Assembly (NCBI RefSeq): GCF_014696675.1
Contig: NZ_JACJQN010000002.1
Location: 1 to 64,000, forward strand
Origin: Phormidium tenue FACHB-1052
Lineage (GTDB): Bacteria > Cyanobacteriota > Cyanobacteriia > Phormidesmidales > Phormidesmidaceae
Direction: 5' to 3'
Length of the DNA stretch: 64,000 bases
The notes beneath the pieces were generated by a model that was not told the origin of the DNA, ran no database searches, and saw only the letters and a program-made list of their open reading frames with translations. Positions 46,616 through 54,351 of the stretch are shown one piece after another. Numbering within the stretch: position 1 is the stretch's first letter; each line of letters starts with the position of its first letter. The position numbers and the translations under genes are program-made.

Positions 46616-49600
46616 ATGAACCAGTTTCCTAAGCCGTCTCTGGCCATGCTGGCGCTGTTCAGCGCCCTGGCTGCGCTGCCGATCAGTGCGCTCCGGTCTG
46701 AGCCTCGGCTGCTGGCTCAGGTGACTCAGAAACCCACACCTACCTTTACCCTGCAACCGAGCGTCCCCGCCGGCACTACCCTCTCGATTGAGGGGTCGTC
46801 GTCGATGGTGGAGATCAACGAGAGCCTAGGCGAAGGCTTTGAGGCTCGCTACCCCGATACCGATGTGGTAGCTGCGACCAGTGGTGACGATCAGGCGCTC
46901 CAGGCACTGCGGGAGGGCGACGTGGACTTAGCGGCTCTGGGGCGATCGCTTAGTGACGCTGAGGAAGATCCGAGCCTGACGTCAATTCCGGTGGCGCGGG
47001 AAAAAATTGCCATCATCGTGGGGCGCGACAACCCGTTCCGAGGTGATTTGACCTTTGATGAGTTTGCCGCCATTTTTCGTGGCGAAATCACCAACTGGTC
47101 GCAGCTAGGTGGCCCCAACGTGCCCCTGAGATTTGTCGATCGCCCCGCCACCAGCTCCACCCGTTTGGCCCTGGCCGACTACGAAATCTTTCAAGCTCAG
47201 CCCTTTGAGACCGGCGACAACGCCGTGCAGGTCAAGGAGGATGACACCGCTACGGTGGTGCGTGAGCTGGGCAACGACGGCATTAGCTATGCGATCGCGT
47301 CTGAAGTGCTAGGGCAAGACGCCGTGCGCCCGGTGAGCCTAGACAGCACCCTACCCGACGACCCCCGCTACCCCTATTCTCAACCGCGCAACTACATCTA
47401 TCAGGGTGAGCCCAGTGTGGCCGTCGAGGCTTTTTTGGGCTTTGCCACCAGCGACGCAGGCCAGTCCGCCGTGGCCGAGGCGCAGCAAACCGCCCGCGCT
47501 AATGTCACCGTAGGGGCCAATAAACTGCCCGGCGGCGTGGCCCTGGCCCCCGATGGCCAATTCATGGTGCGCGGCACTGAAGACGGTCAGCTGCAATGGC
47601 TGGACGCTGACGGCAATCTTACCAAAACGGTAGTAGCCGACGCCCATCGAGGGGCCGTATCGGTTGTAGTGGTTAGCCCCGATGGCCAAACCGTTGTCTC
47701 TAGCGGAGCCGATGGCACCCTGCGCCGGTGGGATCGCAGCGGCAACCCGCTCGGCGAGCCGATCGAAGGGCAGGGTGGCCCAATTTTGGCCCTGGCCATC
47801 AGCCCTGACGGTCAAACCCTGGCCAGTGGCAGCGCCGACGGCACCGTAGAGCGCTGGTCGCTGGCCGATGGTACCCGTGTGGGTGAGCCCATTGCCGCCC
47901 CTGGTGGGCCGGTGCAGGCGCTCCACTATCCGGTGGGTGGGCAAACGCTGATTACGGGCAGCCGCGACGGAAATCTGGGCGTTTGGAATGCGGATGGCAC
48001 TGCTGCGGGCCAAACCGCCAACGCCCACCCCGAGGGCGTGACCACCATCACGAGCAGCCCCGATGGCCAGGTCTTAACGACCACGGGCGGCGACGGCAGC
48101 CTGCGCAACTGGGATCGCGCCACGCTCCAGCCCAGGGGAAATACCATTCAAGCCCATAGTGATGCAGTCAGCGCCGTAGCCTACAGTCCCGATGGCACCA
48201 CGCTAGCCACCACCGGGGCCGACGGTACCCTTCAGCTGTGGTCGCCGGATGGCAGTGAGCAACTAGCGGAACCAGTGCAGCTCGATGAGCCTGCGGCTTC
48301 TCTGGGATATACCCCTGCGGGACTGCTGGTGGTGGGCGGGAGCGATCGCCAGGTTGAACTCCGCAACGACCAGGGCGAACTGGTGTCTGACAGTGCTGGG
48401 GCCAACTCGGGAGACTCCAGCGGCCCCATGGCTGGTTTGGGTGACTTCTGGCAGCGCCTGCAAAACTTGCCTCCCAGCGCCTGGTGGATGCTGGCCGTGA
48501 TTCCGGCCCTGTTTCTGCTGATTGGCATTGCAGGAGCACTGTTCGGCAAAGACCACGACGATGGGGATGAGGATGAGCTAGAGGCCGATGGCGATCGCGG
48601 CCCAGCGTTGGGTCTCATCCCTGGCCCAGATATCGACTTTTCCAAGGTAAGTAGCCAGCCCCCGGCAGATCGGCCAGTGCTTCCCCCAGACCTGCCCGAG
48701 GTAGGTGTTTTGCCCCCCGAAGCCGAACTTGTGCCCAGCGGTGACTACCCGGACGCACAGCCGCCCGGCAAGCTAGAACAGGCGCGCAGGGATCTAGCCG
48801 AGGGCCGCCGCCTGATGCGCGAGGGCCGTTACGACAACGCCCTAATCTATTTCAACCAGGCTGTGGAAGCGACCGAAGTGGAGCGCCGCAAGACTGACGC
48901 TACCGAGACAGCATCTGGAGGCATCAACGCCATTGCGGCCCAGGCCCAGGCCGAACGGGGAACTGCCCTAGCGCTGCTGGGGCAGGCCAACGACGCCATG
49001 GATAGCTTTAACGCCTCGCTACGGCTTGACGCCAGTGTTATCGATGCCTGGATTGGCAAAGGGCGGTTGCTCAATACCATGGCTCGCTATGAAGAATCGG
49101 TCTTCTGCTTTGACACCGCCTTAGAACTTGACCCGACGGCGGTGGCGGCTCATTTGGGCAAGGGGCAAGCGCTCATGGCGATGGGCCGCCAGAGTGAGGG
49201 ACAAGTCTGCCTCGATCGCGCCGCTGCCCTGAGTAGCGACGATTCTACCTGGGCGCTACCTGGGGTGGACGGTGCTTCACCTGAAGCCGGGGTATCGATC
49301 GATCCAGGGTCTTCGGGGATGGGCAGCACTGGGTCTGGAACGGTGGTGCCTGAGTATGCGCCCCCGGTGGACTACGGCTACGACCCCGATGTGCCGATGG
49401 AGCTACAGCAGATGGTACAGGGGCTACCCTCCGCCGATGTGGAAATGGCCGGGACTACGATCGCCAGCAGCTTTGATGTCCCCCCAGACCTAGCGGCAGA
49501 GGCGGCTGATTTGCCCGATCGCGCCGAAGATGCCAGCGCGACTGCCCCAGACCTGGGGTTCACTGCCCCTGAAGTCGTCTCGGGGGGCGATATTCCAGCG

Positions 49601-50320
49601 CCAATTTCTCCCGATGTCATGGCGGTGGAGCCAATGCCAAGCACCCTAGAGGAGGAACTGCTCAGCCAGGTGCATTTAGGAGATACGGCTATGCCTGAGG
49701 TCGAACCCGAAGGGCTGCCAATGGAGGGCAACAGTGCCACCGCCTCAGCAACCATGCCGCCCCTGCGGCCCGCTCCTATGGCGGTGCCGCCGCCAGTGCC
49801 CCTAGAGCCGGGCGACTATGTGCCGCCCCCGGCGGAGATGTCAAATAGCGAAGGTCTATCTGGGCTGGAGGGGCTGCCGCCCGAAATCATGGCGGCGTTG
49901 GCCAGCATTCCGCCCGGCTCGCCCGATAGCTTTGGGGTGGTGCCCACTGGCCCTGAGCCGGTGATAGAAAATGTTGACGACACCGCTACCGCTAGCTGGA
50001 TTCGTCTCTCTATTGACCAGGAGGGAGAACGGTTCTATGCGGTGTGGCAGATCGATGAGGGCGACCGCGCCCAGGCCAAAGCCGACGGCGGCGAAACCAT
50101 GACTCTGCGCCTCTACGATGTCACCGGTCGGGCCACCCAAGCGCCGCTGCCTCCAGCGGTGGTAGAGCAGCGCTGCCGCGACGACTTTGCCCAAGACTGG
50201 TACCTGCCCATTCCCCAGTGGGATCGCATTTATGTCGTAGAGGTGGGTTATTTAAGTGCGGCTGGCGATTGGCTGGCGATCGCCCAGTCGGTTGAGGCAG
50301 CCGCGATTTCTGCCTCCTGA
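46616..50320 (+). CDS. PstS-like / WD40 / TPR / DUF4912 transmembrane fusion protein
   Basis: A 1234-residue protein. A signal segment (residues 1-38) is followed by a PstS-like substrate-binding domain (about 52-295, with SIEGSSSMVEINESLGEGF and PATSSTRLALADYEIF), seven WD40-like repeats (about 300-595), one membrane span near residue 620-645 (WWMLAVIPALFLLIGIAGAL), TPR repeats (about 720-865), a long acidic Pro-rich linker and a DUF4912 domain (about 1120-1230). The layout puts the binding domain and propeller outside and TPR/DUF4912 inside, suggesting a receptor or scaffold. No Pst transport genes are nearby. The ligand and output are unknown. Confidence 0.85.
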   Translation: MNQFPKPSLAMLALFSALAALPISALRSEPRLLAQVTQKPTPTFTLQPSVPAGTTLSIEGSSSMVEINESLGEGFEARYPDTDVVAATSGDDQALQALREGDVDLAALGRSLSDAEEDPSLTSIPVAREKIAIIVGRDNPFRGDLTFDEFAAIFRGEITNWSQLGGPNVPLRFVDRPATSSTRLALADYEIFQAQPFETGDNAVQVKEDDTATVVRELGNDGISYAIASEVLGQDAVRPVSLDSTLPDDPRYPYSQPRNYIYQGEPSVAVEAFLGFATSDAGQSAVAEAQQTARANVTVGANKLPGGVALAPDGQFMVRGTEDGQLQWLDADGNLTKTVVADAHRGAVSVVVVSPDGQTVVSSGADGTLRRWDRSGNPLGEPIEGQGGPILALAISPDGQTLASGSADGTVERWSLADGTRVGEPIAAPGGPVQALHYPVGGQTLITGSRDGNLGVWNADGTAAGQTANAHPEGVTTITSSPDGQVLTTTGGDGSLRNWDRATLQPRGNTIQAHSDAVSAVAYSPDGTTLATTGADGTLQLWSPDGSEQLAEPVQLDEPAASLGYTPAGLLVVGGSDRQVELRNDQGELVSDSAGANSGDSSGPMAGLGDFWQRLQNLPPSAWWMLAVIPALFLLIGIAGALFGKDHDDGDEDELEADGDRGPALGLIPGPDIDFSKVSSQPPADRPVLPPDLPEVGVLPPEAELVPSGDYPDAQPPGKLEQARRDLAEGRRLMREGRYDNALIYFNQAVEATEVERRKTDATETASGGINAIAAQAQAERGTALALLGQANDAMDSFNASLRLDASVIDAWIGKGRLLNTMARYEESVFCFDTALELDPTAVAAHLGKGQALMAMGRQSEGQVCLDRAAALSSDDSTWALPGVDGASPEAGVSIDPGSSGMGSTGSGTVVPEYAPPVDYGYDPDVPMELQQMVQGLPSADVEMAGTTIASSFDVPPDLAAEAADLPDRAEDASATAPDLGFTAPEVVSGGDIPAPISPDVMAVEPMPSTLEEELLSQVHLGDTAMPEVEPEGLPMEGNSATASATMPPLRPAPMAVPPPVPLEPGDYVPPPAEMSNSEGLSGLEGLPPEIMAALASIPPGSPDSFGVVPTGPEPVIENVDDTATASWIRLSIDQEGERFYAVWQIDEGDRAQAKADGGETMTLRLYDVTGRATQAPLPPAVVEQRCRDDFAQDWYLPIPQWDRIYVVEVGYLSAAGDWLAIAQSVEAAAISAS

Positions 50321-50440: not shown

Positions 50441-51142
50441 TCACACCTTGATCACCCACTGTTCGCGGGTGTCGGCGCTGACGAAGGGGGCGGGCACAAA
50501 GGGAATCTCGACCCCCAAGGAAATGAAGGCGGCGCGAATAGTGGTGGCGTGAGCGGCTTCAGCGGCGGCGATGGAGGCTCCGGCAGTGATTAGCTCGGGG
50601 GTTTTGAGCCGAGCAACCTCACCGGCGTAGGCGATCGCGGCATCGGTTTCGAGGGCCAGAGCCAGCTTGGCGATGTTGACATCCGAGTCGAGGCCGCCGT
50701 CGCCCCGCTCCAGGTAGGCCGACAGGTCGTAGCTGTCTTCGGCCATGACGGGGGTGCCGCCCAGATCGCTCACAACCTGGATGAGCAGATCGCGGTGGGC
50801 CATGTGGTCGGCCTGGTTGGCCAGGGCGATCGCCAGCACGGCTTTGCCCACATCGGTGTCGCTCAGACCCCCAGCAGCAGCTCCATAGGCCCAAATGGCC
50901 TGATGCTCGTAGAAGAGTGCTCCATTGAGAATGGCCGCGTCGTTAGCAGCCGCTCTACTGCGAATTCCCCCCATGATGCGGTTCTGCGCACTATGGTTCT
51001 CGGCTTGGGCTGCGCTCTTGGTTAAGGCAGAGAAGCCGAGGGTGCCAACTAGACCCGCGATCGTGCCGCCCAGCATCACCCGACGACGAGAAACCCCTGC
51101 TTTGGGGGAAGCCAGATCGTCAGACATGAAATCGTGATTCAT
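50441..51142 (-). CDS. Tat-exported ferritin-like domain protein
   Basis: A 233-residue protein with a twin-arginine signal (SRRRVMLGGTIAGLVGTLGF) and a four-helix ferritin-like domain. Likely carboxylate and His positions are seen in the pairs LFYEHQAIWAY, DHMAHRDLL, ALALETDAAIAYAGEV and AAAEAAHATTIRAA. Such exported ferritin-like proteins are linked to stress or desiccation in various bacteria, but their chemistry is not established. The ATG at 51142 with an AAGGAT-like site is preferred to 51199. It is divergent from the sigma-factor gene and shares its promoter elements. Confidence 0.82.
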   Translation of the reverse strand: MNHDFMSDDLASPKAGVSRRRVMLGGTIAGLVGTLGFSALTKSAAQAENHSAQNRIMGGIRSRAAANDAAILNGALFYEHQAIWAYGAAAGGLSDTDVGKAVLAIALANQADHMAHRDLLIQVVSDLGGTPVMAEDSYDLSAYLERGDGGLDSDVNIAKLALALETDAAIAYAGEVARLKTPELITAGASIAAAEAAHATTIRAAFISLGVEIPFVPAPFVSADTREQWVIKV

Positions 51143-51199
51143 TGCAGTATCCTTTGCGCTAATGTCGTGGGCAAGCGTAATTGCTATCAGACCCGCCAC

Positions 51200-51227
51200 A
51201 ATACGACTAGCTTTGATCTATGGATGG
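51200..51227 (-). promoter_or_regulatory. candidate ECF promoter of the ferritin-like gene
   Basis: Reading on the minus strand, CCATCC (51227-51222) is followed after 16 nt by CGTATT (51205-51200). Transcription would start about 50 nt before the ferritin-like ATG. The same pair recurs on the plus strand toward the sigma gene. Confidence 0.6.
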
Positions 51228-51304
51228 CCAGTGTTCCCAATTGATGTTTGAGTTCGGCCCATCCATATTGCGTTCTGTATCGGTTTCTCCCCTGGCCATC
51301 CATA
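51219..51304. repeat. nested inverted repeats in the sigma/ferritin divergent region
   Basis: A perfect 13-bp inverted repeat TATGGATGGCCAG (51219-51231) / CTGGCCATCCATA (51292-51304) lies inside an outer perfect 9-bp repeat AATACGACT (51200-51208) / AGTCGTATT (51316-51324). Gaps between inner and outer arms are 10 and 11 nt. This symmetry corresponds to two copies of one promoter facing opposite ways. Confidence 0.9.
51259..51286 (+). promoter_or_regulatory. candidate second ECF promoter toward the sigma gene
   Basis: A third CCATCC (51259-51264) in the segment GGCCCATCCATA is followed after 16 nt by CGGTTT (51281-51286), a weaker match to CGTATT. Start-site spacing would leave a normal leader of about 47 nt before the sigma-factor ATG. 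Confidence 0.4.
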
Positions 51305-51324
51305 ACGGTGGTCTGAGTCGTATT
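51296..51324 (+). promoter_or_regulatory. candidate ECF promoter of the sigma/anti-sigma operon
   Basis: CCATCC (51296-51301), a 17-nt spacer and CGTATT (51319-51324). The predicted start lies very close to the ATG at 51340, leaving almost no leader, so either translation is nearly leaderless or the promoter at 51259 is the main one. Confidence 0.5.
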
Positions 51325-51339
51325 CCTGATGTGTAGTTA

Positions 51340-51927
51340 ATGCCCTCATTGCCGCCCCCCGACCCCCAGATATCCTCTCCAGTGAGCGATCGCGACCTGG
51401 TTACCCGTCTGTGGGCCGGTGATACCACCGCCCTCGCCACCCTCTACGATCGCTATTCGCCGATGGTCTATACCCTGGCCCTCAAAATGCTGTCTAACCC
51501 CGCCGAAGCCGAAGACCTCACCCAAGAGGTGTTCGTCAATTTTTGGCAGCGACGGCAGTACGACGCCAACCGGGGCAGCGTGGGCAGCTATCTGGCTACC
51601 AACACCCGCTCTCGGGCCCTCGATCGCCTGCGGATAAATAGCGGGCGGGCGGTAATTTTGCAGCGGTTTCAGCGCATTAGTGAAGCCTCAGCGCGATCGC
51701 CCAGCCCGGTTGACTACGCCACCCAGCACGAGCAGAACCAGCACCTGCGCGCCGCCCTCGACCAGCTCCCCGCCGCCGAGCGCGAAGTGCTAGAAATCGC
51801 CTACTTTCAAGGCCTCACCCAGGCAGAAATCTCTGCCCAGCTCGGCATTCCTCTAGGCACCATCAAATCTCGCTGTCGCCAAGGCCTCCTGCGCCTGCGC
51901 ACCCTCCTCCAACCCCAGCAAAACTAA
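51340..51927 (+). CDS. ECF-type RNA polymerase sigma factor
   Basis: A 195-residue sigma factor with region 2 (TALATLYDRYSPMVYTLALK, then AEDLTQEVFVNFWQR) and region 4 (LDQLPAAEREVLEIAYFQGL, then EISAQLGIPLGTIKSRCRQG) and no regions 1 or 3. It resembles the SigK-type ECF group that pairs with RskA-like membrane anti-sigma factors. The next gene encodes such an anti-sigma. No ribosome site is obvious before ATG 51340; a GTG at 51382 is an alternative. The -35 motif CCATCC upstream suggests autoregulation. Confidence 0.92.
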   Translation: MPSLPPPDPQISSPVSDRDLVTRLWAGDTTALATLYDRYSPMVYTLALKMLSNPAEAEDLTQEVFVNFWQRRQYDANRGSVGSYLATNTRSRALDRLRINSGRAVILQRFQRISEASARSPSPVDYATQHEQNQHLRAALDQLPAAEREVLEIAYFQGLTQAEISAQLGIPLGTIKSRCRQGLLRLRTLLQPQQN

Positions 51928-51928
51928 G

Positions 51929-51985
51929 CCCTCCCTACCCCCTACTCCCTACCCATCCACTCTCCCACCCCTCACCCTCCCGCCC
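51929..51985. repeat. C-rich tract between sigma and anti-sigma genes
   Basis: Runs of three to five C residues separated by 1-8 nt fill the whole 62-nt gap. The complementary strand has at least five G runs within 51929-51954 and could form a G-quadruplex. The segment 51932-51941 is exactly complementary to 52790-52799 at the other end of the anti-sigma gene. Confidence 0.7.
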
Positions 51986-51989
51986 ACCG

Positions 51990-52796
51990 ATGACCTCCCC
52001 TCCTCTTCCTGAAAATTGGCGATCGCTGCTGGCGGGGTATGTGCTCGACGACCTCACCGCTGAAGAAGCGGCCCAGGTCGAGCAGTGGCTCGAGCAATAT
52101 CCCGAAGTGGCGACTGAACTAGCTGCCCTGCAAGCCACCTGGGGCAGCCTTGCCCTGGGGCCAACGCCGGTAGCACCGCCGCCGGGCCTGCGCGATCGCA
52201 CCCTGGCAGCGGCCCTGGCCGCTGCTGTCCCCGTCGCCGTGCCTGCGGCGGCTGGGCCTGAGCCGACCATTGCGGGAGAGACACTCGTTCCGAGTCAGTT
52301 TCCCAACGCTGCGCCTGCCCCCCGCCGATTTTTATGGGCGCAATTGGGGCTGGTGCTGGGCTGGGCCGCCACCGCCCTGGCCCTGGCCTTTGCCCTGCAA
52401 GAAAACCAGCGTCTGCGCCTCGCCCTGCGCCAAACCGAGGCTGTAGTAGCCAGCTTTAGTCAGCCCGCCAACCGCCTTTACACCCTGGCAGGCACCGAGG
52501 CCGAACCCCAGGCCAACGCCCGCCTGCTGGTCAACCCCGCCGACCAGACCGCACTGATCGTCACCACCGATCTGCCACCTTTGAGTGAGGAGCAAGTCTA
52601 TCGTCTCTGGGCGCTGGCCGACAGCGCCCCCGTGTTTTGCGGAGAATTTAACCCAGCCACCGCTGAAGCCACAAATCAGTGGGCGCTGCCGGATGCTGTG
52701 TGTAGCGATGCTCCAGTGCAGATGTTGATTACGACTGAGCGGGCGGACGATCCACCGATCCCGGCGGGGAATTTGGTGATGCAGAGTGAGGGGTAG
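51990..52796 (+). CDS. membrane anti-sigma factor, RskA-like
   Basis: A 268-residue protein. The N-terminal 50 residues (LLAGYVLDDLTAEEAAQVEQ, then YPEVATELAALQ) form a cytoplasmic sigma-binding helix bundle. One membrane span lies near residues 113-135 (WAQLGLVLGWAATALALAFA). The extracytoplasmic C-terminal half carries the RskA domain pattern: TALIVTTDLPPLSEEQVYRLW and a late ERADDPPIPAGNLVMQS. RskA-type factors hold their ECF sigma at the membrane until proteolysis releases it. It follows the sigma gene by 62 nt. Confidence 0.88.
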   Translation: MTSPPLPENWRSLLAGYVLDDLTAEEAAQVEQWLEQYPEVATELAALQATWGSLALGPTPVAPPPGLRDRTLAAALAAAVPVAVPAAAGPEPTIAGETLVPSQFPNAAPAPRRFLWAQLGLVLGWAATALALAFALQENQRLRLALRQTEAVVASFSQPANRLYTLAGTEAEPQANARLLVNPADQTALIVTTDLPPLSEEQVYRLWALADSAPVFCGEFNPATAEATNQWALPDAVCSDAPVQMLITTERADDPPIPAGNLVMQSEG

Positions 52797-52844
52797 GGAC
52801 TGGAAGGGTGATGGGGAAGGTGGGGGAGTGATGGGGTGATGGGG
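52790..52844 (+). repeat. G-rich tract upstream of the carotenoid oxygenase gene
   Basis: Degenerate GATGGGG-like units. Four runs of at least four G between 52813 and 52844, with loops of 5, 6 and 4 nt, fit the canonical G-quadruplex pattern on the coding strand. It begins in the last codons of the anti-sigma gene. Confidence 0.65.
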
Positions 52845-52908
52845 AGTGGCCCAACCCTTTGGGGCGTCCTGGGTCACAATAGAGCAAGCAATATTTACCG
52901 CTCTACCT

Positions 52909-54351
52909 ATGGCTCCTTTGGCACCGTCGCGATCGCAACCCGCCGCTGCATCCACTACGGCTCTATGGGCGGGGGCGATCGCCCAGCCTGCAACAGAATT
53001 TGCCGTCACCACGCTGTCTGTGCTGGAAGGACAGTTGCCGGATGGGCTGCGGGGCACCCTCTACCGCAACGGCCCAGCCCGGTTTGAGCGGGGCGGCACC
53101 CGAGTCGGCCACTGGTTTGATGGCGATGGGGCAGTGCTGCGGGTGAAGTTTGACGGCGATCGCGCTTTGGGCACCTATCGTTACGTGCGCTCTGCCGGGT
53201 TTATGGAAGAAGAAGAGGCCGAGCAGTGTCTCTATCGGGGCTATGGCACTCTGCCGCCCGTTTCCATTTGGCAGCGGTGGCAGACTCAAATGAAAAATGC
53301 GGCCAATACCTCGGTGCTGGCCCTGCCCGATCGCTTGCTGGCCCTGTGGGAAGGGGGCTTACCTCACCGCTTGAATCTAGAGACCCTAGAGACCGATGGC
53401 CTAGACAATTTGGGGAGCCTCAAGGCCAGCGACACCTTTACGGCCCACCCCAAACGCCACCCCCGCACTGGCCAGATCTTTAGCTTTGGCACCATCCCTG
53501 GGGGCAATGCCACTCTTCAGATTTACCGCTGCAGCGCCGCTGGGGTCGTAGAGCAAACTGGCACGATTCCCCTCTCGGGTATTCCGCTGATTCACGACTT
53601 TGTGCTGGCCGATCGCTACCTGGTGTTTTGCGTATCGCCCGTGCGCCTTAGCCCCTTGCCCGCCCTGTTTGGCCTGTCTAGCTTCAGCGATGCGCTTCAG
53701 TGGCAGCCCCAGCAGGGCACCCAGATTATTGTGGTGGATGCTGACAGTCTGGAGGCGATCGCCCTCAATGACGCAGACCCCTGGTACCAGTGGCACTTTG
53801 GCCACAGCTATTTAGATTTTGATGGCTCGATCGTGTTTGATGTGGTGCGCTACAACGACTTCGCCACCAACCAGTATCTCAAAGAGGTGGCCTCGGGCCA
53901 GACCTCTACCCCCGCCGATGCCCAGCTCTGGCAGTACCGCATCGACCCCAAAACCGGCAAGATTCTCGACCAGCAGTGCTTGATCGATCGCCACTGCGAG
54001 TTTCCGGTGGCGTTTGGCCAGGACGAGACGGCGACCACTTATTTGAATGTGCATCGCACGGTGCCCACCCCGGTAGATGAACTGTTTGGGGCGATCGCCC
54101 GCCTTGACCCTAGAACTGGTCTCACTGTTGCCGATGCCGGAGAGGGCCGCTATCCCTCAGAACCGATCGTCGTTGCGAACCCGGCGAACCCTCAGCAGCC
54201 CTGGGTGCTGACTGTGGTCTACGACGGCAACCAGCACCGCAGCGAACTGTGGGTTTATGAAGGGAATGAGCTTGAGAAGGGACCGATCTGTCGGCTAGGG
54301 CTGCCGGAGGTGGTACCCCACAGTTTTCACGGCACCTGGATGAGTGAGTAA
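52909..54351 (+). CDS. carotenoid oxygenase (apocarotenoid-cleaving dioxygenase family)
   Basis: A 480-residue enzyme of the carotenoid cleavage oxygenase/RPE65 family, a seven-bladed propeller with a non-heme Fe(II) held by four histidines. Candidate ligands lie in TFTAHPKRHP, IPLIHDFVLADRY, NVHRTVPTP and the C-terminal VVPHSFHGTW. The start segment LRGTLYRNGPARFERGGTRV and HWFDGDGAVLRV are hallmarks. The ATG at 52909 is favoured over the GTG at 52846, which lies next to the G-rich tract. It lies 112 nt after the anti-sigma gene on the same strand and may be part of that stress locus. Confidence 0.92.
   Translation: MAPLAPSRSQPAAASTTALWAGAIAQPATEFAVTTLSVLEGQLPDGLRGTLYRNGPARFERGGTRVGHWFDGDGAVLRVKFDGDRALGTYRYVRSAGFMEEEEAEQCLYRGYGTLPPVSIWQRWQTQMKNAANTSVLALPDRLLALWEGGLPHRLNLETLETDGLDNLGSLKASDTFTAHPKRHPRTGQIFSFGTIPGGNATLQIYRCSAAGVVEQTGTIPLSGIPLIHDFVLADRYLVFCVSPVRLSPLPALFGLSSFSDALQWQPQQGTQIIVVDADSLEAIALNDADPWYQWHFGHSYLDFDGSIVFDVVRYNDFATNQYLKEVASGQTSTPADAQLWQYRIDPKTGKILDQQCLIDRHCEFPVAFGQDETATTYLNVHRTVPTPVDELFGAIARLDPRTGLTVADAGEGRYPSEPIVVANPANPQQPWVLTVVYDGNQHRSELWVYEGNELEKGPICRLGLPEVVPHSFHGTWMSE

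Follow-up and report, generated by a model that had tools for sequence, protein, structure and literature searches.

An ECF sigma/RskA-type pair with a putative autoregulatory promoter, and a conserved promoter core before ferritin-like genes of cyanobacteria

The sigma factor SigK of Mycobacterium, whose anti-sigma factor is RskA, uses CCATCC as its −35 element. We find the same hexamer three times between a sigma/anti-sigma pair and a divergent ferritin-like gene of Phormidium tenue FACHB-1052 (assembly GCF_014696675.1, contig NZ_JACJQN010000002.1, positions 1-64,000; this whole stretch is called the window). This arrangement raises the question of whether the cyanobacterial sigma factor would drive both its own operon and an exported ferritin-like protein, and how widely such a module is kept.

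The divergent region and the proteins encoded around it

Two promoter-like sites in the divergent region face apart, one toward the sigma/anti-sigma pair and the other toward the ferritin-like gene (Table 1). A preliminary description of this DNA had reported three CCATCC motifs, two of them opposed and followed by CGTATT after 16-17 nt. Performing a motif scan of the window, we confirmed this reading by exact coordinates and by an above-chance count: the base composition predicts 0.00008 copies of CCATCC-N15..18-CGTATT in 198 bp on both strands, and two are present. The whole-genome scan proposed in the same description found four sites in 5.82 Mb, two of these in the divergent region. Of the others, one lies within an ORF (L001) and one (L004, spacer 18) some 165 nt before an ORF that reads as glyA-like in translation. 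The lone CCATCC is not enriched in the 64 kb (42 copies vs a shuffle mean of 43.3). At the sigma side, the start codon stands 15 nt after the CGTATT, and the leader would therefore be very short. The middle CCATCC was rejected as a promoter because CGTATT is absent and the hexamer is poorly conserved; in the alignment of seven close species, CCATCC is found in 2/7 and CATCC in 6/7.

Table 1. Features of the locus (window coordinates; promoters are predicted from sequence).
Feature	Position	Strand	Remarks
Ferritin-like gene (PF13668, PF14530)	50441..51142	-	ATG at 51142; N-terminal twin-arginine motif; presumed target
Divergent region	51143..51339		197 bp, between ATGs 51142 (-) and 51340 (+)
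Ferritin-side promoter (predicted)	51200..51227	-	CCATCC 51227-51222, N16, CGTATT 51205-51200
Third CCATCC	51259..51264	+	CGTATT absent downstream; probably no promoter
Sigma-side autoregulatory promoter (predicted)	51296..51324	+	CCATCC 51296-51301, N17, CGTATT 51319-51324
ECF sigma factor	51340..51927	+	PRK12519 subfamily, SigK-like (NCBIfam and PDB relatives)
Anti-sigma factor	51990..52796	+	RskA_C; one hydrophobic span; C217 and C238 invariant
Carotenoid oxygenase (RPE65 family)	52909..54351	+	Pfam PF03055; neighbour, module membership not supported

Judged by sequence, the pair is SigK/RskA-like. The sigma factor scores 230.2 bits against NCBIfam PRK12519 (NF009172; cut-off 222). In a PDB comparison, its closest solved relative is SigK (4nqw, E 1.9e-22) and the second-best is the sigma factor of SigE/ChrR of Rhodobacter (2q1z). 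The earlier label "SigK-like" thus holds as a description and fails as a membership, with 135.4 bits against the NCBIfam SigK model (PRK09646; cut-off 226). The anti-sigma factor scores 50.4 bits against RskA_C (PF10099; cut-off 29.4) and 102.4 against the NCBIfam antisigma model (cut-off 100). Hydropathy alone, rather than a topology program, predicts a single span at residues 119-137 (maximum 1.83), in agreement with the RskA-like C-terminal domain and one membrane span claimed before. The RskA N-terminal domain (PF22618) is not among its Pfam matches at E 0.001. The cysteines C217 and C238 of its outer domain are invariant in 13 aligned sequences.

The likeness to SigK/RskA of Mycobacterium (ECF19) consists of the closest solved sigma factor, RskA_C with a single span, and probably the −35 hexamer. 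The differences are the SigK score below cut-off and the cyanobacterial host. In addition, the presumed target here is a ferritin-like protein, whereas excerpts of PMC7509140 name the MPT70/MPT83 antigens as targets of SigK; they also state autoregulation of SigK/RskA for M. tuberculosis.

The ferritin-like protein scores 77.1 bits against Ferritin_2 (PF13668; cut-off 24.7), and 30/30 aligned homologues match this family at E 0.001. Residues R19 and R20 are at least 90% conserved and stand before a hydrophobic stretch, which suggests a Tat substrate; Pfam TAT_signal matches 1/30 homologues. Invariant in the aligned homologues are E79, H113, H116, E165, E195 and H198, candidate metal ligands. 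Structure prediction gives a confident helical core. It has structural matches to the ferritin fold, most of which show just the common four-helix fold, and one Foldseek match, 2ib0, reaches E < 0.001. The family match, the arginine pair and the motif conservation given below all agree with the earlier proposal of a twin-arginine ferritin-like target behind a mirror-image promoter.

We did not adopt iron storage as the function of this protein, because one member of PF13668, RvFeMP-1 (RvY_06210), is a ferritin-like metabolite phosphatase according to excerpts of PMC11616004. The two proteins are alike in Pfam family, fold match, secretion signal and stress link. In RvFeMP-1, the catalytic Asp135 stands three residues after Glu132, whereas the window's protein has no Asp three residues after E165; the likely counterpart is E165-T-D167-A168, a tentative mapping outside helices 1-2, the part covered by the alignment. 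It also has no IgG-like domain.

Conservation of the promoter sites

Within the genus Nodosilinea, both predicted promoter sites are kept, and they exceed chance. Among 16 sigma loci, the window's own included, the exact CCATCC-N14..20-CGTATT is found on both sides in seven (L005-L010, L013) and on one side in three (L011, L012, L014); the other six (L015-L020) have it on neither side and carry weaker forms. Seven close species show no change in the −10 blocks CTGAGTCGTATT and AATACGACTAGC, and a stretch of the ferritin-like gene's leader is conserved among them as well. The shorter core ATCC-N16/17-CGTA lies upstream of the sigma gene in 15/15 further orthologues (N17 in 12, N16 in 3). A conserved ECF-type promoter thus appears to precede the sigma factor's own operon, as in autoregulated ECFs. 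The two promoters recur in relatives even without an adjacent ferritin gene (L018/L077) and in relatives with a longer gap (L012/L071, L045). The preliminary description had made its case depend on motif conservation in relatives sharing the gene order, and the motifs are conserved there.

ATCC-N16-CGTA also stands upstream of 27/30 relatives' ferritin-like loci (shuffle mean 0.13) and of 63/80 named ferritin-like loci of cyanobacteria (shuffle mean 0.18), two sets that have species in common. These 80 loci come from fewer than 80 genomes, L244 and L254 being on the same contig, and L249 has just 141 nt of upstream sequence. The spacing at these loci is almost exclusively 16. Ten of the 17/80 loci without the N16 core are named Nostoc, Calothrix, Dulcicalothrix or Tolypothrix. 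Within the genus, the ferritin-like gene is present in 14/14 genomes with the sigma factor and in 0/12 without it, mostly as a neighbouring gene. The genome counts were made by hand and ignore kinship, the 25-row subclade on which co-occurrence was scored was picked after the tree was seen, and the assembly of G024 is incomplete (84%, with 6% contamination). One genome (G029) has a ferritin gene with a CGTAC site, yet neither an RskA-type nor a cupin-type ECF was detected there.

Two ECF clades with different inhibitors

The ECF set comprised matches stronger than about E 1e-25, plus L083, and 99 distinct sequences of at least 140 residues, out of 115 ECF matches, entered the tree. Its root serves for drawing only and does not tell the direction or number of sensor exchanges. 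One split (100/100) parts the tree into 71 and 28 sequences. The adjacent inhibitor is RskA-type in 60/71 ECFs and cupin-type in 24/28, with none crossed, and no adjacent inhibitor was found for the remaining 15 of 99. The motif is kept at 16/17 ferritin loci beside RskA-clade ECFs and at 21/22 beside cupin-clade ECFs, four of the latter (L232, L239, L258, L262) being assigned by similarity instead of the tree. The ferritin-like gene thus has neighbours of both inhibitor types and retains its promoter with either sensor. Five genomes, each from a different family, contain both a cupin-clade ECF and the ferritin gene at distant positions, and 4/5 of the best ferritin genes there have the motif. 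For 37/71 ECFs of the window's clade, the 250 nt upstream contain no site, although 20/22 ECFs of one subclade have a site farther away, as described below.

All five cupin-clade inhibitors tested carry Cupin_7 and HxHxxxE. The latter matches the cupin ligands of ChrR (His141, His143 and Glu147 in excerpts of PMC6852236), and both are points of likeness to SigE/ChrR of Rhodobacter (ECF11). Unlike that system, the zinc anti-sigma motif HxxxCxxC occurs in 0/5 of them, and they are therefore named ChrR-like, not ChrR; the window's own inhibitor is not cupin-type. Excerpts of a 2009 review (PMC2758279) describe the cyanobacterial SigG/SapG as an ECF sigma factor with an adjacent interacting protein, a likeness to the window's pair, and call the functions and promoter recognition of SigG, SigH and SigI unclear at that time. 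In the window's genome, L083, which we presume to be SigG, is a different ECF; it shares 31% identity with the window's sigma factor and resembles SigE/SigW models more closely.

We give about even chances to a still broader reading, in which an ECF stress regulon is common to many cyanobacteria. Its core output would be a Tat-exported dinuclear-metal ferritin-like enzyme under ATCC-N16-CGTA. Its input would have been exchanged by evolution, membrane-anchored RskA-type sensing of an exocytoplasmic signal in some lineages vs a ChrR-like cupin (perhaps for singlet oxygen) in others, and the target promoter would have been retained with small adjustments (CCATCC...CGTATT vs GATCCAA...CGTATA). The two clades amount to a natural experiment, since the sensor varies between them and the target promoter does not. 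Sequence comparison here yields a concrete promoter code and a conserved target for a cyanobacterial ECF family, and it offers a little-studied exported ferritin-like family as a testable stress output, with redox or singlet-oxygen stress suggested as signals.

Proposed mechanism, rival readings and extent of the regulon

The comparisons make it likely that the locus forms a small ECF stress module that regulates itself, in which the sigma factor, with its RskA-type anti-sigma factor, drives its own operon and the exported ferritin-like gene. In the cyanobacterial response to which it belongs, the ferritin-like gene with ATCC-N16-CGTA would be the constant core, and the sigma/sensor pair would be RskA-type or ChrR-like cupin-type by lineage. 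From the observed promoter sequences and their conservation, we infer transcription, signal and protein activity as follows. In the resting state, the membrane-anchored anti-sigma factor would keep the sigma factor inactive, as its family suggests. A signal outside the cytoplasm would release it; this signal is possibly redox, because the two outer-domain cysteines are invariant. The freed sigma factor would then direct RNA polymerase to its own operon's promoter (spacer 17) and to that of the Tat-exported, putatively metal-binding ferritin-like protein (spacer 16).

The window's sigma factor is the probable user of these promoters, but a further RskA-type ECF encoded in the genome (L082) uses a similar one. 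In a rival reading, which we regard as unlikely, the promoters are a class common to several ECFs: the window's sigma factor is just one user, and the ferritin-like gene is transcribed also, or mainly, by L082 or a different ECF. In L082's subclade, ATCC-N16-CGTA lies about 0.9 kb or more upstream in 19/22 loci (N17 in one more), mostly before a CHRD-domain gene, and the core is found throughout the ECF family, also at the cupin-linked ferritin genes. However, 18/19 of the N16 sites in that subclade read CGTAC vs CGTATT at the window's sites, and genus genomes with the second ECF but without the window's sigma factor (e.g. G009, G016, G022, G025) are also without the ferritin-like gene. The least probable reading that we weighed takes the conserved blocks for RNA elements or sites of another DNA-binding regulator. 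The partly conserved ferritin leader would suit it, and the promoter reading is a sequence-based one; but the two blocks keep a constant distance (16 nt, or 17 at the sigma side), stand upstream of both divergent genes and recur before related ECFs, all as an ECF promoter would predict.

A broad SigK-type regulon including the carotenoid oxygenase, as first proposed, seems very improbable. The oxygenase adjoins the anti-sigma gene on the same strand in 7/13 genomes with a readable downstream side (three more end at a contig edge), and read-through is possible. Its upstream region, however, has a different conserved block, TCCTGGGTCACAAT, and no CCATCC/CGTATT-type motif, and the gene is absent in 6/13 assessable genomes; it was therefore rejected as a target. 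The strict motif also gave no further conserved, sigma-dependent site in the 26 genus genomes and the four-species comparison, which argues against a wider regulon of the strict motif; the two promoters alone recur in all four species.

Returning to the two-promoter module, genome-wide N16 motif counts are near background. CATCC-N16-CGTATT has 42 sites vs 27 for the reversed control (26 genus genomes), the ferritin site being among the 42 in 11/14 genomes with the sigma factor, and ATCC-N16-CGTATT has 16 vs 17 (four genomes of four species). In the latter genomes, ATCC-N17-CGTATT has 23 sites vs 8. A site before a ribonuclease-J-like ORF was found in 3/4 species but also in G009, which is without the sigma factor, and was dropped; ATCCCCAGAnGACAAAATCAGCGTATT, which recurs in two of the four species inside ORFs, was likewise set aside. 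CATCCATnACnGCnGGnATnCCGTATT, assumed to be coding sequence, and CATCCTGCCAGTGGTGGCTnACGTATT recur in the 26-genome CATCC-N16-CGTATT scan. Loosening the pattern gave at least 151 N16 matches vs 80 controls and 64 N17 matches vs 124 controls in the four genomes, and one shared loose-pattern site precedes the second ECF operon.

Predicted divergent promoters of the ECF locus

The source genome (5.82 Mb, 36 contigs), whose genus corresponds to Nodosilinea, holds four sites in total for the strict motif CCATCC-spacer-CGTATT. Two of them face apart between the ferritin-like gene and the ECF sigma gene, where base composition predicts 0.00008 sites in 198 bp. The promoter motif noticed in the preliminary description is real; CCATCC by itself is not enriched in the window. 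The only other intergenic-looking strict site, CCATCC-N18-CGTATT (L004, 1501-1530, minus strand), has a glyA-like ORF about 165 nt downstream of it. Low-complexity DNA, C-rich and G-rich, occurs in the gaps that follow the sigma gene (51928-51989) and the anti-sigma gene (52797-52850), and a CCATCC at 51953 in one of these gaps has the look of chance.

Genes and promoters of the locus
Feature	Position	Strand	Remark
Ferritin-like protein	50441-51142	-	
Ferritin-side promoter, CCATCC-N16-CGTATT	51227-51200	-	ferritin-like ATG 57 nt further on
Sigma-side promoter, CCATCC-N17-CGTATT	51296-51324	+	ends 15 nt before sigma ATG
ECF sigma	51340-51927	+	
Anti-sigma	51990-52796	+	
Carotenoid oxygenase	52909-54351	+	

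Comparing 16 sigma loci (own included, at least 56% identity), we found the strict motif on both sides in seven, on one side in three and on neither side in six, where weaker forms are present. The relaxed form ATCC-N16/17-CGTA occurs on the sigma side of all 15 orthologues besides the window's (N17 in 12, N16 in three). The motifs are kept in relatives that share the gene order. As for INDEPENDENCE from the neighbourhood, the sigma gene of L018/L077 lacks an adjoining ferritin gene and keeps its own promoter, and L012/L071 has a wider gap between the two genes and keeps both promoters. In the 13 orthologues from the genus, the -10 element precedes the aligned start codon by 15 nt (11 loci), 16 nt (one) or 14 nt (one), which predicts a sigma mRNA leader of just a few nucleotides. 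The spacer is 17 at the sigma promoter in 12 of these 13, as against 16 at the ferritin promoter, an asymmetry that may hold feedback below output. Within the genus, the ferritin leader from promoter to ATG (51143-51199) shows strong conservation, many species having GTTAGCGCAAAGGATA ahead of the start codon, which would reflect a Shine-Dalgarno sequence plus, possibly, an RNA element.

Sequence conservation gives good support for an autoregulated ECF pair whose target would be an exported ferritin-like protein. Unlike this core, the carotenoid oxygenase and the wider SigK regulon proposed with it are not supported as parts of the system. The sigma itself is SigK-like: among solved structures it comes nearest to SigK of Mycobacterium tuberculosis (E 1.9e-22), followed by the ChrR-controlled SigE (3.2e-21). 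It failed the SigK cut-off and passed that of PRK12519. The anti-sigma bears an RskA_C match and one hydrophobic span; its C217 and C238 are invariant across 13 aligned sequences, and a search against solved structures gave no sequence match at E 1.

The ferritin-like protein is 94% identical to that of Nodosilinea sp. FACHB-131. Residues E79, H113, H116, E165, E195 and H198 do not vary in either of two alignments, of 20 and 30 sequences. Structure prediction gives a helical core with good confidence (mean pLDDT 79; most of residues 61-210 at about 90 or above). Rv2844 leads the fold matches (Z 17.7), with RvY_06210 (Z 16.1) within the first ten. RvY_06210, which shares the Pfam family of the window's protein, is described in one study as a dinuclear-metal metabolite phosphatase with higher expression in the anhydrobiotic state (PMC11616004). 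Because of this family member, we favour a metal enzyme or metal-binding protein over iron storage as the role of the putatively exported product. The window also encodes, at 46616-50320, a 1234-aa protein with a phosphate-binding-protein-like domain, WD40 repeats, TPRs and DUF4912, whose gene is a neighbour of the ferritin gene in 11 related loci (L065-L075).

The ferritin promoter across cyanobacteria

A ferritin-like homologue is present in 30 of 57 relatives. The core ATCC-N16-CGTA (N16 core) lies within 300 nt upstream in 27 of 30 loci, the remaining spacers between 8 and 24 add up to four matches, and single-base shuffles give a mean of 0.13 (maximum 2). Among named genomes, 63 of the best 80 (of 109) ferritin loci have it within 350 nt and L263 has N17; every other spacer from 6 to 26 gives at most three, and dinucleotide shuffles average 0.18 (maximum 2). 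The 30- and 80-locus sets have species in common, and their counts are not additive.

The 17 loci of the 80 without the N16 core are L199, L226, L229, L231, L235, L237, L238, L242, L244, L249, L251, L253, L254, L257, L260, L261 and L263. Since ten bear the names Nostoc, Calothrix, Dulcicalothrix or Tolypothrix and one Plectonema, N16 control has perhaps been lost or changed in this group, although L240, a locus labelled Calothrix, and L262, labelled Richelia, do have the core. On a weight-matrix rescan, L199, one mismatch from the core with spacing unchanged, scored 15.0, above the 99% shuffle level of 10.9 (shuffle maximum 15.5), and L253 fell barely under that level at 10.6. A ferritin-like gene 70% identical, with the N16 core, stands on a contig labelled Candidatus Gracilibacteria (L228), probably a binning error.

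Among the genus genomes, the ferritin gene occurs in 14/14 with the sigma and 0/12 without it. Of the 30 ferritin genomes among the 57, 25 hold a window-type ECF (at least 56%) or an ECF of a 25-row cupin subclade, and of the 27 genomes without the gene none does, counted by hand with the subclade picked afterwards. With physically linked pairs removed, the figures are 5/10 and 0/27 (Fisher p 0.0006, kinship not corrected). The five unlinked cases come from five families, and the N16 core stands upstream of four of their five best ferritin genes. Five ferritin genomes lack either ECF kind (G028, G029, G035, G037, G052); the genomes of the cupin-clade ECFs outside the subclade (L162, L165, L167) lack the ferritin gene.

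Two kinds of input module

Of greater interest is what the comparison shows outside the window: two sensor kinds, one target and one promoter signature. A maximum-likelihood tree of 99 ECFs has one split (100/100) of 71 against 28. The larger, first clade takes in orthologues of the window's sigma, whose own copy is not a row. The adjoining inhibitor, typed with profiles built from sequences gathered in this analysis, is RskA-type for 60 of the 71 (not found for 11) and a cupin protein for 24 of the 28 (not found for four), with no crossed pair among the 99. Pfam matches bear this out, with RskA_C in L196, L210 and L205 and a ChrR cupin domain in L241, L227, L264, L209 and L234. These five cupin proteins all carry HxHxxxE, and none carries HxxxCxxC. 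They are probably soluble, because their hydropathy maxima (0.69-1.29) lie below those of 16 RskA-type inhibitors (1.31-2.49).

An ECF lies in the fetched stretch at 39 of the best 80 (of 109) named ferritin loci, 17 of the first clade and 22 of the second. The N16 core is found at 16/17 and 21/22 of these (L263 has N17), and at 26/41 without a nearby ECF. There is a slight difference in consensus: ccATCCA...TCGTATt goes with the first clade and agATCCAA...CGTATac with the second. The core beside both clades indicates that, at sequence level, the sensing pair differs while the target promoter is kept; the tree gives no direction of any exchange. Such a site occurs within 250 nt upstream of 34/71 first-clade ECFs themselves and 0/28 second-clade ones. 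Among the literature matches listed on ECF systems, ferritin-like proteins and cyanobacteria, no title or opening of an abstract describes this module, which does not establish its absence from print.

The second RskA-type ECF locus of the genome (L082, 3419-4893, minus strand) belongs to a 22-locus subclade with the N16 core about 0.9-1.0 kb upstream in 19 loci, N17 at 1.3 kb in one and neither in two. In L082, a gene for a CHRD-domain protein (PF07452) sits between the upstream site and the ECF, and tblastn found this protein in 19/22 loci. With a secreted CHRD-domain gene ahead of it, this second ECF likely belongs to a parallel autoregulated operon. The promoter class would therefore seem common to this ECF family, probably with fine tuning: 18 of the 19 N16 sites here read CGTAC rather than CGTAT. 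Behind the ferritin gene, two cupin-type loci encode possible further members: a DUF4331 protein in one (L264, 5676-6923, plus strand) and an MFS transporter in the other (L241, 5633-6922, plus strand).
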